A stretch of DNA of 35,895 nt from a virus: the IMG/VR virus record IMGVR_UViG_3300026521_000230, positions 1 to 35,895 of that record; one strand, given 5' to 3'. Each line of letters begins with the position of its first letter. The first letter of the stretch is position 1. The notes beneath the pieces are model-generated. The model was not told where the DNA came from and did no database searches. It saw only the letters and a program-made list of their open reading frames with translations. The position numbers were made by a program, and so were the translations under genes. Shown here one piece after another: positions 1-35,895 of the stretch.

Positions 1-126
1 CTTGATACCCCTCTTCTACAAAACCTTAAATATTCTTCGTATCGAAAGTAAATCAATGAAAAACATAATTAATGTTAGTAAAAATGTAATCGGTCAAGAG
101 TCTGTCAATAGTGTAAACGCTAGAGA
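1..126 (+). repeat. 126-bp direct repeat, left copy
   Basis: Bases 1-126 are identical to 35641-35766. After the repeat the two copies diverge at once (GGTGTATG here, CTTATGGA at the other end). The repeat holds the last 11 bases of the RNA leader seen at 35556-35651 (its B3' arm), the untranslated tail, and the first 23 codons of an AntA-type antirepressor gene starting at ATG 56. Because the flanks differ, this is not a simple end overlap of a circular sequence. It could be two real loci with an identical 5' segment, or a branch point in the assembly. The repeat may extend left beyond base 1, which cannot be seen. Confidence 0.95.
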
Positions 127-10961: not shown

Positions 10962-10984
10962 CCATAATTTAATGCTACAATGCA

Positions 10985-11019
10985 ACTTAAGTATCAATTA
11001 AGTGCTATTGTGCTATAAT
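10985..11019 (+). promoter_or_regulatory. Promoter with ACTTAAGT operator for the 11052 gene
   Basis: ACTTAAGT (10985-10992) and ATTAAGT (10997-11003) are followed by ATTGTGC and a TATAAT at 11014-11019. The same elements, ACTTAAGT then GCTATTGTG and TATAAT, recur before 34691. A ribosome binding site AAGGATAAAAA precedes the ATG. The palindrome lies in the -35 region, a normal place for a repressor operator. Confidence 0.7.
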
Positions 11020-11051
11020 ATGGATACAAAAGCAAAAAAAAAGGATAAAAA

Positions 11052-22274: not shown

Positions 22275-22408
22275 TCATAAATAAGCTGAGGATGCAAAAT
22301 AAAGCCAAAAGTAGGGGTAAGGTATATCATCATATAGGTAACACATAAAAAGTCTTCAAATCGTCGTATTTACAAATTAGTTAAAAATCACACCTAACTC
22401 AAAAAATT

Positions 22409-22550
22409 TACACTAAATTTATCATCTAATTAACACTCGCACACTGTACACTAAATTTATCATCTAATTAACACTCGCACACTGTACACTAAATTTATCA
22501 TCTAATTAACACTCGCACACTAAATTATCATCTAATTAACACTCGCACGC
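22409..22550. repeat. 38-bp tandem direct repeats (iterons)
   Basis: Two perfect 38-base units start at 22409 and 22447 (TACACTAAATTTATCATCTA, then ATTAACACTCGCACACTG). A third starting at 22485 is complete but for its last two bases, and a fourth, shorter unit follows (about 22516-22550, missing TGTACA and one T). A fifth, diverged partial unit is at about 22652-22680. There are no unique spacers. Such tandem units next to an AT-rich stretch are typical of sites where an initiator protein binds. Confidence 0.88.
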
Positions 22551-22557
22551 AAAATAG

Positions 22558-22635
22558 CATTTTTCCCATTTTTACTCCATTATCCTAAATACATATTCTA
22601 ATATTTAGGATAATGGAGTAAAAATGGGAAAAATG
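22558..22635. repeat. 34-bp perfect inverted repeat with 10-base loop
   Basis: The arm 22558-22591 (CATTTTTCCCATTTTTACTC and on to CCTAAATA) is exactly complementary to 22602-22635, leaving a 10-base loop. No T tract of terminator type follows on either strand. It lies between the iterons and the partial fifth unit, so it is part of the same locus. A single strand would fold into a long hairpin. Confidence 0.9.
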
Positions 22636-30596: not shown

Positions 30597-30637
30597 CCCT
30601 TAAGTTAAGTTATACTTAAGGGGTATTGTACTATAAT
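30597..30637 (+). promoter_or_regulatory. Promoter with inverted-repeat operator before the polymerase genes
   Basis: CCCTTAAG (30597-30604) and CTTAAGGG (30615-30622) form an 8-base inverted repeat with an internal TTAAGTTATA spacer; ATTGTACTATAAT follows with TATAAT at 30632-30637. No T tract follows, so an operator is more likely than a terminator for the upstream gene. It serves ATG 30672. Confidence 0.7.
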
Positions 30638-30671
30638 ATATTACAATTTAACACAACACAAAGGCTTAACA

Positions 30672-31034: not shown

Positions 31035-32895
31035 TATTGAACTTGACAAATCCCATTTTGGTGTGGGATTTATGAATATAAAAAATAAAAAAGTCAAGCA
31101 ATTTAATCTACACAAAGATGGGCAACTTGAAAAGCTCAAAAAATATCTTAAAAAACATCAACCTTTACTTATAGGCTTCAACTCATTAAACTTTGATGAC
31201 ATGCTGCTTCATTTTGCATTAAAAGGTAAAAGTATTGCACAACTATATGATATCTGTATGAGTATCATTGATGAAGGCAAAAGACGCTATCAGTTTGAGA
31301 ATATAAATATACAAAGCATTGATTTGATGGAAGTTGCACCGTCCCAAGCAGGATTGAAGTTGTATGGAAGTAGGTTGATGGCTAAAAAGTTGCAAGACAT
31401 GCCTGAAGATTACAACAACGATGATGTTGACTGGGATGGGATTATGCAATACAATGTTAACGATTTGGAACTGACATTGTTGCTATATAAAGAGCTTGAA
31501 GATGCTTTGAAGCTAAGAAGAGATTTGGCAAAAGAGTATGATCTAAGTGTGATTGATGTGCTAAGTAAGAGTGATGCTCAAATTGCTGAATATGTGTTTA
31601 AAAATTTACTTGAATACAAAAAACCTATAAGAGTGAGTGAAGTTAGCTATGAGGCACCTGCATACACAATGGTTGATCCAAATAGTGTTACATATGAAGT
31701 AGCCACAAAGTTTAATGGAACTACATTCAAAATTAATCAAGGTAACGGTTCACCTATTACGCCCGATTGGATAAAAGCTAATGACAAAGTAACAATAGAT
31801 GGTGTTGATTATACAATAGGTTTAGGGGGACTGCATAGCAACGAGAAGAGTGTTGCTATAAAACCACAAAAAGGATATGTTTTAGCAAATGCTGACATTA
31901 GTTCTATGTACCCAAGCCTTATCATTAATTCAGGCTTATATCCCACAAACTTTGGTGAAAAGTGGAGAGAAGTTTATACTAAGTTCAGGGATGAAAGATT
32001 GAAACTAAAACCAGACCCTAAACAAAAGAAAAGAGTTGCAATGCTTAAGATTTTTCTAAATGGAACCTATGGTAAGCTTGGCTCTGTTTACAGTGTGTTG
32101 TATGCACCTCATTTGCTTTTAAATACAACTTTGACAGGGCAACTTACTTTGCTACAAATTATTGAAGAGTTGGGTAAATTGAATGATGTTAAAGTGGTAA
32201 GTGCTAACACAGATGGGTTAGAATATGTTTGTAAAAAACAAGATTTTGAAAAGTGTAAAAAACTCATTGATGATTTGGGCAAAAAAGCAAATCTTATTTG
32301 GGAACACGCAACATACAAAGCTTTATATAGTAGGGATGTGAATAGCTATATTGCTATCTATGATGGATATGCAAAAAGAAAAGGTTTTTTTGCTAAACCT
32401 AATCTTAGTAAGAATGTTGAGTATCCTATTGTACTCGATGCTATTGAACAGTTTTTGCTAAATGGAACAGACCCTAAAGAAACAATAAATAATTGTAAAG
32501 ATATAGCTATGTTCTGTAGTGCAAGAAAAGTGACAGGTGGAGCTTTTTGGGATGATAAAGACTATTCGAACACTGAAGAGTACAATCAATATATCATAGA
32601 TGTGCAAACTAAAGGTAGGAAACAAAATAAAGCTTTAGAGAAGCGTAATCTTGAACATCAAAAAAAACTTATGTTAAATGATGAGAATGTGAAAGAGTGT
32701 TATTTGGGTAAGGTTGTGCGATGGTATTATGCTAAGGGTGGTAAACCTATCTATTATGTTAAGTCAGGTAACAAAGTGCCAAAAACTGATGGATGTAAAC
32801 CTATGATGGAGTTAAGTGATACAATACCAAATGATTTAGACTATGAGTATTATTACTCTTTAGTTGAGCTACATTTAAGTGATGTGGGTGTATAA
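31015..32895 (+). CDS. Family B DNA polymerase
   Basis: The 626-residue protein is the replicative polymerase. The proofreading exonuclease shows Exo I YDIEL (6-10, Asp7 and Glu9), Exo II GFNSLNFDD (54-62, Asp61) and Exo III YNVNDLELT (146-154, Asp150). The polymerase part has motif A ANADISSMYPS (291-301, Asp294), motif B KIFLNGTYGKLG (345-356) and motif C SANTDGLEY (396-404). In motif C the first Asp of the usual DTDS is Asn (398), while the essential second Asp (400) is kept. It has no obvious protein-priming insertion. The stop lies in the promoter of the following antirepressor cassette. Confidence 0.9.
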   Translation: MKKFIYDIELDKSHFGVGFMNIKNKKVKQFNLHKDGQLEKLKKYLKKHQPLLIGFNSLNFDDMLLHFALKGKSIAQLYDICMSIIDEGKRRYQFENINIQSIDLMEVAPSQAGLKLYGSRLMAKKLQDMPEDYNNDDVDWDGIMQYNVNDLELTLLLYKELEDALKLRRDLAKEYDLSVIDVLSKSDAQIAEYVFKNLLEYKKPIRVSEVSYEAPAYTMVDPNSVTYEVATKFNGTTFKINQGNGSPITPDWIKANDKVTIDGVDYTIGLGGLHSNEKSVAIKPQKGYVLANADISSMYPSLIINSGLYPTNFGEKWREVYTKFRDERLKLKPDPKQKKRVAMLKIFLNGTYGKLGSVYSVLYAPHLLLNTTLTGQLTLLQIIEELGKLNDVKVVSANTDGLEYVCKKQDFEKCKKLIDDLGKKANLIWEHATYKALYSRDVNSYIAIYDGYAKRKGFFAKPNLSKNVEYPIVLDAIEQFLLNGTDPKETINNCKDIAMFCSARKVTGGAFWDDKDYSNTEEYNQYIIDVQTKGRKQNKALEKRNLEHQKKLMLNDENVKECYLGKVVRWYYAKGGKPIYYVKSGNKVPKTDGCKPMMELSDTIPNDLDYEYYYSLVELHLSDVGV

Positions 32896-32896
32896 T
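32891..32896 (+). promoter_or_regulatory. -10 box for the antirepressor cassette 2 RNA leader
   Basis: TATAAT at 32891-32896 overlaps the polymerase stop codon. The -35 region is weak. A start near 32903 would place the RNA leader (from 32919) close to the 5' end. The equivalent promoter of cassette 3 has TTGACT-18-TATAAT. Confidence 0.6.
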
Positions 32897-32918
32897 ACAC
32901 TCACAAGAACTTAAATTG

Positions 32919-33035
32919 TACTCTTCAAGGTGTCCAAGTTTCCATTGGCATTCACTCTTCGGGGTGGGTGTCATAAAATTTGAATAGCTTGAAGAGTATG
33001 TGCTACTTATGTGTATATTTGGAAAACTTGGACAC
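32919..33035 (+). ncRNA. Structured RNA leader of antirepressor cassette 2 (c4-like)
   Basis: Arms in order: A5' TACTCTTCAAG (32919-32929), immediately B5' GTGTCCAAGTTT (32930-32941, plus CCA), hairpin C (32946-32957 with 32962-32973, C-UUCG-G tetraloop), A3' CTTGAAGAGTA (32988-32998), then B3' AAACTTGGACAC (33024-33035). A is perfect over 11 pairs, B over 12 plus 3 across one bulged A. Hairpin C has 12 pairs including four G-U pairs that fold only as RNA of the plus strand. B3' ends 44 bases before ATG 33080 and is followed by TTTT. The order recalls P1 c4, an antisense RNA that pairs with the downstream ant message. The RNA reading is strong; the mechanism is inferred. Confidence 0.72.
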
Positions 33036-33162
33036 TTTTCCTCAATCTTCTAAATTTTATTGTCTGAAAGAAAATCATAATGAAAAACATAATTAATGCT
33101 AGAGAGGTGTAATCGGTCAAGAGTCTGTCAATAGTGTAAATGCTAGAGATTTATGGAGAGCG

Positions 33163-33783
33163 TTGGAGAGTAAACAAGATTTTAGTACTTGGATGAAAGC
33201 TAGATTAGATAAGTGTATGGCTACTGAAAACGAGGATTATATGGTTCTCCACAAAAAAATGGAAAACCCTACAGGGGGGCGTCCACAGATAGAATACATA
33301 CTATCAACTGACTTAGCAAAAGAAGTTGCAATGCTAGAGGGTAACAAAAAAGGTAAAGAAGTTAGAAAATACTTTATTCAAGTAGAAAAAGAGTATCGTA
33401 AACAACAAGAGAAACCAATGAGTACAACTGAAATGATGATTGCCCAGCTTCAAAAACAATTAGAACAAGAAAAAATAAATAATCAAGTAACTCAAAAACT
33501 GTCAACACTTGACAACAAGATTGACAAAGTAGCAAGTGAGATTAGAGTTAGTAGAGAAGTTTTACCACAAACAGGTTTTATGAGTATTGATGGATTGAGT
33601 AAAGAGTGTGGTTTGAGTAACAATACTATAAAACGAATTCTTAAGATAGTTAAACCATATGTAGCATACAAAGCTAAAACAGTTAAAAAGTTTGTTAAGC
33701 AAATGAGAAAAAGTGCATATCCTATTGGTAAAGGTACATTTTATAGATGCCCAATAGTAGATTTCAAATGGCAAAATATATAA
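33163..33783 (+). CDS. AntA-type antirepressor, copy 2
   Basis: The body has a full AntA domain: NARDLWRALESKQDFSTWMK, then ENEDYMVLHKKME, TGGRPQIEYILSTDLAKEVA and KGKEVRKYFIQVEKEYRKQ. Unlike copy 1 it has a coiled linker (MIAQLQKQLEQEKINNQVTQ) and a C-terminal helix-turn-helix (MSIDGLSKECGLSNNTIKRI). The ancestral ATG is 33080, but 14 bases (33098-33111) replace 15 in the other copies and put a stop at 33110-33112. The body frame is open from 33103; the first usable start is TTG 33163, with GGAG 4 bases before it, which would cut the first part of the AntA domain. It lies between polymerase and FEN genes and follows the RNA leader. Activity is uncertain. Confidence 0.72.
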   Translation: MESKQDFSTWMKARLDKCMATENEDYMVLHKKMENPTGGRPQIEYILSTDLAKEVAMLEGNKKGKEVRKYFIQVEKEYRKQQEKPMSTTEMMIAQLQKQLEQEKINNQVTQKLSTLDNKIDKVASEIRVSREVLPQTGFMSIDGLSKECGLSNNTIKRILKIVKPYVAYKAKTVKKFVKQMRKSAYPIGKGTFYRCPIVDFKWQNI

Positions 33784-33796
33784 AAGGATCAGTATT

Positions 33797-34615
33797 ATGA
33801 AAAACAAAAACAAAAAGAAATTTAAAGGGGTAGTAATAGATGCCGACCACATCCTCTATACAGTTACAGAGGGTAAGGGTAATAAAGACGGTGGTTTCAA
33901 AGCTGATGAATCTGATAACGGCTTTGATGGTTTTAATGGTAAAGAATACAAACCATCTTTAAAGCCTTACAAAGAGCAGTTTAAGGCTATCATACACGAT
34001 TATCTTGATATCATATATGCTCAATATGCAGGTGAAGTGGGTAGTAAAGTAAAAGTTGTGTTGAGTGGATCTAATAACTTTAGATTTAAGTTAGATTCTA
34101 ACTATAAAGCAAATCGTAAAAACTTAAAAAAGAGTGATGAATATTACAGGTTGAAAAAATGGGCTGCTAAGAAATATATTGTATATAATAAATTTGAAGC
34201 AGATGATATATACTCACACTATATCAAAAAAGGTTTCATTGGTGTTACAACAGATAAAGATTGCTTCAAGGGTGTAGCAGGAACACACTTCAACGCACAT
34301 TATATGCATAGAAGATTTATAGAAACAAGTGAGTTGGACGCTAGACGATTCAACTTGGTGCAATTACTTATGGGTGATGCCAGTGACAACATAAAAGGTT
34401 TACCAGGTATCGGTGAAAAAACTGCTATTAAGCTTTTAGATAAGTTTGGTTGGAATTTTGAGGGTGTTTTAAAAGCATATGAACTCAAGGGATTAACAAT
34501 CGAAGACGCCCTTTTAACTTACAGACTGATAGATTTAAATCAAGCTTGTTATGATAAGCACAATAAAGAGTTCGATGTATGTTTAAAACAAATCAAAGAT
34601 TTAAAATTTCCTTAA
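33797..34615 (+). CDS. FEN-like 5'-3' exonuclease
   Basis: The 272-residue protein is a flap endonuclease / 5'-3' exonuclease of the phage T5 D15 and T7 gp6 class, which removes RNA primers and flaps. Metal-site residues are visible: VVIDADHIL (12-20, Asp15 and Asp17), YKANRK (103-108), FEADDIYS (133-140), TTDKDC (151-156) and the helix-hairpin-helix GDASDNIKGLPGIGEKTA (193-210). An acidic-Gly insertion (ADESDNGFDGFNGKE) follows the first motif. The order after DNA polymerase, with only the antirepressor cassette between them, suggests that cassette was inserted into a replication gene pair. Confidence 0.9.
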   Translation: MKNKNKKKFKGVVIDADHILYTVTEGKGNKDGGFKADESDNGFDGFNGKEYKPSLKPYKEQFKAIIHDYLDIIYAQYAGEVGSKVKVVLSGSNNFRFKLDSNYKANRKNLKKSDEYYRLKKWAAKKYIVYNKFEADDIYSHYIKKGFIGVTTDKDCFKGVAGTHFNAHYMHRRFIETSELDARRFNLVQLLMGDASDNIKGLPGIGEKTAIKLLDKFGWNFEGVLKAYELKGLTIEDALLTYRLIDLNQACYDKHNKEFDVCLKQIKDLKFP

Positions 34616-34619
34616 CTGT

Positions 34620-34655
34620 CACTTAAGTGCTAATTAAGCTATTGTGCGCTATAAT
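34620..34655 (+). promoter_or_regulatory. Promoter with CACTTAAGTG operator
   Basis: Palindrome CACTTAAGTG (34620-34629), then TAATTAAG and ATTGTGCGC, then TATAAT (34650-34655). Almost the same elements precede 11052. It serves ATG 34691, whose leader has AAAGAGG. Confidence 0.7.
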
Positions 34656-34690
34656 ACACTTATCAAAAACAAAAAAGAGGTAAAAAAAAA

Positions 34691-34948
34691 ATGAAAAGCA
34701 CAATGGAACTTTATGGTATGAGTAAAGAAAAAGTTCAATCTTTAAAATTGATGAGTTATGGTTTTGCTATTGAAACTAAAATAGCTTATGGTAAAGAGCG
34801 TTATAAAAAACTATGCAATGAGTTAAAAAGTGCATACGAAACAAAATCATATGATATTGTTAGTAAGCTAAACAATGACATTATTAAACTGAACAAAGCA
34901 TTAAATTTTAATGAATTATTATTGATTGAAATGGGGTATGAGATATGA
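34691..34948 (+). CDS. Hypothetical protein (85 aa)
   Basis: Not recognised. The protein is helical (YGMSKEKVQSLKLMSYGFAI and LNNDIIKLNKALNFNELLLI), without a signal or membrane segment. It is the first of four tightly linked small genes with ATGA overlaps (34945, 35115 and 35489), under the ACTTAAGT-type promoter. This cluster lies just before antirepressor cassette 3. Confidence 0.65.
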   Translation: MKSTMELYGMSKEKVQSLKLMSYGFAIETKIAYGKERYKKLCNELKSAYETKSYDIVSKLNNDIIKLNKALNFNELLLIEMGYEI

Positions 34949-35118
34949 CAAAAAAAGAATTAGATATGTTGATAAAAAAGTTAGATAAAGAGCTACAAAC
35001 AATAGGTCAACTTGGTGCTATTGTTACGGCATATAGTGCATACAACACAAGACGAAAAGATAAAATAAACCTTGATACTTGGTTGAAGTGTGAAGATGTG
35101 AGAAAGAGTTTAAAATGA
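34945..35118 (+). CDS. Small hypothetical protein (57 aa)
   Basis: A short frame, MTKKELDMLIKKLDKELQTI and so on, ends TWLKCEDVRKSLK. It is coupled at both ends by ATGA overlaps (34945-34948 and 35115-35118), which strongly supports that it is translated. The first half looks like a short coiled coil; no family is recognised. Confidence 0.7.
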   Translation: MTKKELDMLIKKLDKELQTIGQLGAIVTAYSAYNTRRKDKINLDTWLKCEDVRKSLK

Positions 35119-35492
35119 AAAACAAAATAACAATAACATCTTTTGAATTTGAATTTATGATGTATGCCACTGCTAAGCATTATCTTGAAGAAAGTTTGAA
35201 AGATGTTGATATAAACACACAACCTAAAATTGTCATACAAGCACTTGGTGTTGCAAGAAGATATCTGATACTACACAAAGACCAAATGAGTCAAAAAAGA
35301 TTTATGGAGATAAACGATAGTATTGATGATAAGAAAATACACGAGATACTAGATAGAGAGATAAGCTTTTTGGTGTTTGGTATGGAGTTGATAAGACTAC
35401 TTAGACCAATACAGCTCAAACAAAGAAAGCTTGATATGTTCACAGCCAACTATACAATCGGATTGATTAAAATGAAAAGAGATTATAGATGA
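35115..35492 (+). CDS. Hypothetical helical protein (125 aa)
   Basis: Not recognised. The product is mainly helical (FEFEFMMYATAKHYLEESLK, ALGVARRYLILHKDQMSQKR, ISFLVFGMELIRLLRP), with no known motif. It is linked to its neighbours by ATGA overlaps. It is the last full-length gene before the promoter and RNA leader of antirepressor cassette 3. Confidence 0.65.
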   Translation: MKNKITITSFEFEFMMYATAKHYLEESLKDVDINTQPKIVIQALGVARRYLILHKDQMSQKRFMEINDSIDDKKIHEILDREISFLVFGMELIRLLRPIQLKQRKLDMFTANYTIGLIKMKRDYR

Positions 35493-35566
35493 GAGTAAAG
35501 AAACTGCTCAAAAACTATTTGACTTTTATCAGCGTTATGTGGTATAATGCTGATAAAGAACTTTAA
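35489..35566 (+). CDS. Tiny possible ORF (25 aa) overlapping a promoter
   Basis: ATG 35489 overlaps the preceding stop as ATGA and reads MRVKKLLKNYLTFISVMWYN then ADKEL and a stop at 35564-35566. The frame runs through the TTGACT and TATAAT of the cassette 3 promoter and into the first arm of the RNA leader. It would be translated by coupling only on read-through transcripts. Whether it is a gene is doubtful. Confidence 0.3.
   Translation: MRVKKLLKNYLTFISVMWYNADKEL
35519..35548 (+). promoter_or_regulatory. Sigma70-type promoter of antirepressor cassette 3
   Basis: TTGACT (35519-35524), 18 bases, TATAAT (35543-35548). The predicted start at about 35555 coincides with the first base of arm A (35556), so the RNA leader would begin the transcript. 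Confidence 0.72.
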
Positions 35567-35651
35567 CGGGGTATCAAGTCCACGAGATATCATCTATCTT
35601 GATGATGTCCCGTTAAGGTTCTTAATTGTTGTAAAAGAGACTTGATACCCC
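35556..35651 (+). ncRNA. Structured RNA leader of antirepressor cassette 3 (c4-like)
   Basis: Same order of arms as at 32919, with unrelated sequence. A5' AAGAACTTTAACGGG (35556-35570) pairs with A3' CCCGTTAAGGTTCTT (35609-35623), 15 pairs with one G-U. B5' GTATCAAGTC (35571-35580) directly follows A5' and pairs with B3' GACTTGATAC (35639-35648), 10 pairs. Hairpin C ATATCATC (35587-35594) pairs with GATGATGT (35601-35608), with one G-U pair. B3' ends 47 bases before ATG 35696 and is followed by a pyrimidine-rich CCCTCTTCT. The last arm is in the 126-bp repeat, so copy 1 at the window start probably has the same leader outside the window. Confidence 0.7.
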
Positions 35652-35766
35652 TCTTCTACAAAACCTTAAATATTCTTCGTATCGAAAGTAAATCAATGAA
35701 AAACATAATTAATGTTAGTAAAAATGTAATCGGTCAAGAGTCTGTCAATAGTGTAAACGCTAGAGA
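35641..35766 (+). repeat. 126-bp direct repeat, right copy
   Basis: Identical to bases 1-126. It spans the end of the RNA leader, the untranslated tail and the first 23 codons of the antirepressor. Bases to the right differ from 127 onward (CTTATGGAAAGC here). See the left copy. Confidence 0.95.
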
Positions 35767-35895
35767 CTTATGGAAAGCGTTGGAAGTAAAAACAGAGTTT
35801 AGTAAATGGATAAAGAGAAGATTAGACGAGTGTATTGCTACTGAAAATGAAGACTATATAGTTTTTGCCAAAAATGACGATAACTCTACAGGGGG
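35696..35895 (+). CDS. AntA-type antirepressor, copy 3 (partial, cut by window end)
   Basis: From ATG 35696 an uninterrupted frame of 66 codons reads MKNIINVSKNVIGQ..., then the AntA domain NARDLWKALEVKTEFSKWIK and ENEDYIVFAKNDDNSTG, where the window ends. This copy has the original start that copy 2 has lost, and its body is close to copy 2 (RALESKQDFSTWMKARLDK) rather than copy 1. It has its own promoter and RNA leader. No strong ribosome binding site is visible; GAAAG lies about 11 bases before the ATG. This is the best candidate for the working antirepressor. Confidence 0.82.
   Translation, partial: MKNIINVSKNVIGQESVNSVNARDLWKALEVKTEFSKWIKRRLDECIATENEDYIVFAKNDDNSTG

Follow-up and report, generated by a model that had tools for sequence, protein, structure and literature searches.

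The C4 antisense RNA controls the AntA-family antirepressor in P1 and P7 (PMC5320573; PMC12197685), and the sar RNA of phage P22 represses antirepressor mRNA through an antisense mechanism (PMC12197685). Unlike the 5' hairpin of the antirepressor (ant) leader described below, P22 sar RNA is made separately. The P22 antirepressor belongs to a different family from AntA, and C4 is processed by RNase P to yield an RNA of ~77 nt. An antisense RNA and a pseudoknot reportedly compete for one loop in repZ of the IncI-complex plasmid ColIb-P9, going by the title of a 1998 report from Asano and Mizobuchi (cited in PMC7646527).

We analyzed a 35,895-nt stretch of viral DNA (the window; positions 1 to 35,895 of IMG/VR record IMGVR_UViG_3300026521_000230), a contig that starts and ends within an antirepressor repeat. 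The initial annotation had placed a structured RNA leader before the third antirepressor copy. The features of this copy are as follows.

35489-35566, plus strand: open frame of 25 codons that spans the promoter and ends within A5' (from sequence)
35519-35548, plus strand: sigma-70-like promoter, TTGACT-18-TATAAT with TG, 11/12 matches
35525-35557, no strand assigned: inverted repeat TTTATCAGC/GCTGATAAA centered on the promoter (helix 35524-35539/35543-35558)
35556-35570 (A5') and 35609-35623 (A3'), plus strand: stem A, 15 pairs including 1 G-U
35571-35580 (B5') and 35639-35648 (B3'), plus strand: arm B, 10 pairs
35586-35594 and 35601-35609, plus strand: hairpin C, 9 pairs with a 6-nt loop
35629-35661, plus strand: target hairpin T, TTGTAaAAGAG [ACTTGATACCC] CTCTTcTACAA, p 0.001
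35679-35685, plus strand: segment E, GTATCGA, which can also pair with the T loop (TTGATAC, 35642-35648) and shares its last two bases with the start of GAAAG
35684-35688, plus strand: GAAAG, a weak Shine-Dalgarno-like site (from sequence)
35696-35893, plus strand: AntA/AntB antirepressor copy 3 (PF08346, E 3.1e-13), cut by the window end

The gene at 35696 carries PF08346, and the leader therefore does precede an antirepressor. The promoter was the best of 22 hits in the surrounding 3.2 kb, and transcription is predicted to start 7-8 nt past it, on the first base of A; both the promoter and this start position agree with the initial annotation. The short frame that had been reported to overlap the promoter from 35489 is the 25-codon frame listed above, which is probably incidental. 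The inverted repeat at 35525-35557 is operator-like and would presumably act as such.

A scan for interlocked helices, using 1000 dinucleotide shuffles of each leader as the null, gave the copy 3 leader (35556-35648) a score of 58.6, compared to a shuffle mean of 32.5 (sd 3.7, maximum 47.4), and none of the 1000 shuffles reached 58.6. The arms follow the interlocked order A5'-B5'-C-A3'-B3', with a gap of 0 between A5' and B5'. The annotated 15-pair A, 10-pair B and direct A5'/B5' junction were all recovered, as was the distance of 47 bases between the end of the 10-pair B3' and the ATG at 35696 (overall range 41-47 nt). Hairpin C is also present, but with nine pairs rather than the eight originally given, and its last base (35609) also belongs to A3'. 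Arm B can lengthen to 13 pairs (35568-35580/35639-35651) by taking three G residues common with A. Stem A alone can reach 21 pairs by recruiting the beginning of B5', which puts A and B in local competition, and this extension of A competes with hairpin C as well. If A, B and C all formed in cis, the predicted product would be an H-type pseudoknot with 0 nt separating A5' from B5'. We agree with the earlier judgment that the three helices are awkward together. We looked for a terminator after stem A and found none, and release of the 5' hairpin would consequently need processing.

Upstream copies of the gene provide a comparison for this arrangement.

1-126, plus strand: copy 1, whose leader is truncated by the contig start; same sequence as 35641-35766
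32917-32929 and 32988-33000, plus strand: stem A of the copy 2 leader (32917-33035)
32930-32941 and 33024-33035, plus strand: arm B of the copy 2 leader
32946-32957 and 32962-32973, plus strand: hairpin C of the copy 2 leader, with a UUCG tetraloop
33021-33041, plus strand: hairpin T of copy 2, GGAAAA[CTTGGACAC]TTTTCC
33061-33067, plus strand: copy 2 segment E, TGTCTGA, which can pair with TTGGACA of the copy 2 T loop

The identity of 1-126 with 35641-35766 indicates that copy 1 lost its own 5' leader at the contig end. Copy 2 is likewise an AntA/AntB antirepressor with PF08346, and its leader bears out the claim of a second leader with the same architecture: it scored 56.2, again with an A5'/B5' gap of 0 and matched by 0/1000 shuffles. 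In both copy 2 and copy 3, the interval separating B5' from A3' holds hairpin C. Copy 1 (1-184) is interrupted by a stop after 43 codons, and copy 2 (33080-33112) has a stop 10 codons from its ATG and is displaced by 1 base from the copy 3 frame. These interruptions may reflect decay or an assembly error.

The same plan was found before an intact AntA frame in an uncultivated-virus relative, IMGVR_UViG_3300007776_000030 (positions 1812-1952; hereafter L056). Its leader has a predicted -10 (identified by eye), a 22-pair hairpin A with B5' (TTGTCAAGT) in the loop, a weak inner hairpin of 3 pairs only, and B3' (ACTTGACA) in a downstream loop 15 nt past the stem. L056 was the sole further member of this leader type in our AntA survey, giving three known leaders, two of which are paralogs. 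A MAFFT alignment of the three did not align the arms; the A arms of copy 2, copy 3 and L056 are unrelated in sequence, and yet their pairing is kept. The 5' hairpins of all three are far more stable than shuffles (z -6.6, -8.4 and -5.4). The predicted leader structure is well supported. At all three leader promoters, the -10 box is also the center of an inverted repeat, whose sequence varies from leader to leader: TTTATCAGC/GCTGATAAA at 35525-35557 for copy 3, GTGTA/TACAC at 32889-32900, and CTAATG/CATTAG at L056:1790-1812. It is possible that these repeats are repressor operators.

In all three leaders, B3' sits inside the 9-11 nt loop of a local hairpin, T. The T hairpin of L056 is GAATAGTaTGAA[ACTTGACAC]TTCAaATTATTC, and comparison with shuffled flanks gave p values of 0.001 (copy 3), 0.043 (copy 2) and 0.0018 (L056). 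Every T loop contains CUUG, an instance of the YUNR loop motif that speeds antisense pairing (PMC6562991). The copy 3 T loop has an unpaired probability of 0.97-1.0 in the predicted target RNA ensemble; for copy 2 and L056, the calculation yields T as a suboptimal fold of the predicted target ensemble.

The T loop has a second potential partner, E, which lies directly before GAAAG or overlaps it by 1-2 bases in the three leaders. GAAAG itself is kept upstream of the ATG in copies 2, 3 and L056. The loop/E pairs are TTGATAC/GTATCGA in copy 3, TTGGACA/TGTCTGA in copy 2 and TTGACA/TGTCAG in L056, with marginal p values of 0.012, 0.026 and 0.034, respectively. The helix is short, at 6-7 pairs including G-U. 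Its register relative to GAAAG is equal within 1 nt in the three leaders, for a joint probability of 5e-7, a value that is optimistic because the test was post hoc and counted homologous leaders as independent. All five core loop-E pairs of copy 3 are replaced by other pairs in copy 2, with both partner bases changed and pairing kept, and this two-sided change is a stronger argument than the joint probability. Since the same T loop can pair with either B5' or E, B5' resembles E and the two compete for the loop. Hairpin T, the Shine-Dalgarno-proximal partner E and the link to C4 and AntA are additions to the initial annotation.

Other candidate elements of the leader were rejected. A pairing of A3' with a segment D (35613-35620/35662-35669) was considered as a third conserved helix, but its p values were 0.007 in copy 3, which supports it, a marginal 0.066 in L056 and 0.24 in copy 2, where it has no support. 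In-frame TTG starts within B3' of copy 3 and L056 have no convincing Shine-Dalgarno sequence, and in copy 2 the TTG is out of frame. A conserved leader peptide was dismissed because the reading frames differ among the leaders: copy 2 has a 32-codon frame with GAAGAG, copy 3 has no equivalent, and the short frame in L056 is non-homologous.

We then compared these leaders with C4. Rfam searches of the whole window at gathering cut-offs detected neither C4 (RF01695) nor int-alpA RNA (RF02996), and a permissive search of 32850-35895 (E up to 10) returned nothing credible, including no C4 or int-alpA. The same search detects C4 at seven other AntA loci (L042, L185, L190, L202, L280, L294 and L302) and int-alpA in Acinetobacter AntA leaders. 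With no Rfam match, the copy 3 leader is not a C4 RNA. It nonetheless resembles C4 in being co-transcribed upstream of an AntA gene on the same strand, in having a long closing stem (A, 13-22 pairs in the three leaders) together with an inner hairpin (C, in copies 2 and 3), and in carrying an antisense segment whose complement lies further down the leader. Unlike C4, which has the segments a' and b', the window leaders have one antisense segment. This segment, B5', lies 5' of the inner hairpin and is joined to the closing stem, whereas the C4 segment is in the P3 loop; and its target is in the loop of a separate hairpin ~45 nt upstream of the ATG, whereas the C4 target is on the ribosome-binding site (RBS). 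The order of the arms differs as well. In C4, as read in L042, b' precedes a' and the targets run a then b, whereas A and B are in parallel order in the window leaders. With A5'-B5' and A3'-B3' in parallel, one RNA cannot pair both arms as a continuous antiparallel duplex, and A is therefore best read as an intramolecular stem like C4 P1, leaving only B as an antisense-target pair.

The leaders also share features with the IncI-complex repZ system and its ColIb-P9 Inc RNA. The target loop is of the U-turn type (UUG there, CUUG in the three T loops) and can pair either with the antisense or with a segment beside the Shine-Dalgarno sequence. In ColIb-P9 the antisense is transcribed from the opposite strand, whereas B5' shares the strand of the ant gene and precedes it; the gene is a phage antirepressor rather than a plasmid replication initiator; and the window leaders have no conserved leader peptide coupled to ant.

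AntA genes were taken from viral contigs and genomes, and their leaders were scanned for interlocked helices. Copy 3 had the top score among 144 non-redundant AntA leaders (z 9.1). Scores of z at least 4 were obtained for 13/144 AntA leaders, including both window leaders and L056, compared to 2/192 corrected controls from other genes (Fisher p 5e-4); the uncorrected control count was 4/194, from which L071_757 and L098_710 were removed as mis-sampled AntA leaders. Several AntA leaders with interlocked architecture are true C4 RNAs, and the scan, which was blind to Rfam, recovered six of the seven Rfam-identified C4 loci, with L280 scoring lower. It also found leaders that are not C4 according to Rfam: the Acinetobacter L091/L088 and L032 types, and L040, L297 and L295, whose long stems enclose a stretch that could pair with the start region. 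The Acinetobacter types share the A5'-B5'-A3'-B3' order, with a gap of 0 in L091, but their antisense covers the RBS directly without a target hairpin. Thus, AntA genes are repeatedly preceded by a hairpin near the 5' end of the leader in which an inner segment is antisense to sequence further down, and the window leaders are a further scaffold of this kind.

Two of the Acinetobacter loci merit description in their own right. In the prophage leader L091:2859-2926, a 14-bp stem is followed by TTTTTT, and the whole 11-nt loop is complementary to sequence before the ant ATG. This hairpin looks terminator-like, unlike the window leaders, and with its predicted antisense to the downstream RBS it would be a minimal C4-like device. 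At L032:2824-2919, which matches int-alpA RNA (RF02996), the AntA ribosome-binding region has its complement in the loop GTTTCGACTATTCATTG, pointing to a putative antisense function for the int-alpA family at this locus.

Interlocked arms did not exceed shuffles in Helicobacter pullorum prophage AntA leaders. Most Campylobacterota prophage AntA leaders were covered (L324, L326 and L323 among those checked; AntA occurs in 24/397 genomes), and none was of the window type. L233 reached z 3.6 and was discarded because its AT-rich arms are located in another coding sequence. DNA polymerase relatives led to one viral locus, which was without AntA. L324, L326 and L233 have a small, similar ORF (MKVKIITKSGKTRVLKV...) upstream that ends just before AntA or overlaps it.

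We also calculated pairing within and between leaders. Pairing of A5' with its own A3' is worth -16 to -25 kcal/mol, compared to -0.7 to -7.9 between leaders. After opening costs, net B5':B3' binding in trans was -6.1 kcal/mol for copy 3, -8.5 for L056 and -1.8 for copy 2; opening B5' costs 3.2 kcal/mol in copy 3, where it is partly buried, and 9.6 in copy 2, where it is deeply buried. At only -1.8, static trans binding makes a weak model for the copy 2 leader, which would have to act co-transcriptionally or in a processed form. The B arms have a common CAAGU/ACUUG core, and cross-pairing was -16.0 for copy 2 B5' on copy 3 B3' and -7.6 for copy 3 B5' on copy 2 B3'. Cross-regulation would therefore be asymmetric rather than absent. 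As cross-pairing is absent for the A arms and asymmetric for the B arms, each of the two paralogs may have its own specificity.

We favor a model, at close to even chances, in which the leader would be a co-transcribed antisense switch for the antirepressor, with capture of the T loop by B5' blocking the loop-E pairing and lowering ant translation. The first ~68 nt (A5'-B5'-C-A3') would form a stable hairpin, with A and C as the scaffold that presents the B5' antisense, and the loop of T would present B3' downstream. The loop would accept B5' or E as mutually exclusive partners. B5' could act in cis within its own transcript or, once the 5' hairpin has been released, in trans on further ant mRNAs. 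Formation of the loop-E pseudoknot beside the weak Shine-Dalgarno site would promote ant translation; capture of the loop by B5' would prevent the pseudoknot and keep the antirepressor off, favoring lysogeny and immunity. As to the direction of the effect, repression by B5' is probable. The leaders might also form a so far undescribed type of phage immunity RNA, whose 5'-end antisense competes for the loop of a translation-activating Shine-Dalgarno pseudoknot, a possibility we regard as doubtful.

The leader could instead operate purely in cis, as an alternative-fold switch set during transcription with no trans-acting RNA, in which A plus T would exchange with a B5'-B3' helix enclosing C. The free ensemble of copy 3 (-44.8) is close to its B-enforced fold (-40.3), and stem A has no terminator after it, as such a switch would have it; but the B-enforced nested fold of L056 is much less stable (-22.9 vs -41.6), and C4, the closest characterized relative in the AntA context, acts in trans. 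We consider this switch somewhat unlikely. A trans interaction through both arms, with A and B of one RNA pairing to A3' and B3' of another, is very improbable: both arms are complementary and leader-specific, but arms and targets run in the same 5'-3' order, which precludes a continuous antiparallel duplex, and A is already paired within a very stable hairpin. The initial annotation had preferred alternative folds or pairing in trans to a full cis structure. An alternative fold was indeed found between the B3' loop and 35679-35685, and trans pairing is plausible for B, but the parallel order argues against it for A.

Because loop-E pairing overlaps 1-2 bases of the Shine-Dalgarno site, it could instead hide this site and repress ant, in which case B5' binding would free it and the 5' hairpin would activate. 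The overlap of E with 1-2 bases of GAAAG in the three leaders suits such a scheme, but GAAAG and the ATG stay mostly open, and the characterized RNA controls of ant (C4 and P22 sar) all repress (PMC12197685), so we view activation by the 5' hairpin as improbable. It is more improbable still that the repeats lack any antisense role and serve as DNA sites for phage regulators or as an mRNA-stabilizing 5' hairpin. Strong 5' hairpins can stabilize mRNAs, and a separate operator-like palindrome covers the promoter; against this, the paralog arms differ in sequence with pairing kept, and B3' is in a YUNR loop in all three leaders.

With the antisense switch that we favor, C4-style antisense regulation of antirepressors would no longer be confined to the Rfam family. 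AntA leaders have acquired the same logic on several RNA scaffolds. Since any change in the target loop has to be matched by both of its partners, each duplication could create a new immunity specificity, which offers a reason for the divergence of such leaders.

Elsewhere in the window, promoters at 10984-11021, 30602-30639 and 34620-34657 share a AACTTAAG...TTAAG...TATAATA-like sequence, which was not seen at the antirepressor promoters and is possibly a common operator. Divergent gene blocks flank a region (22397-22551 and 22558-22635) where tandem 38-nt repeats adjoin a perfect inverted repeat of 34 bp; this region is a candidate replication origin or regulatory region.
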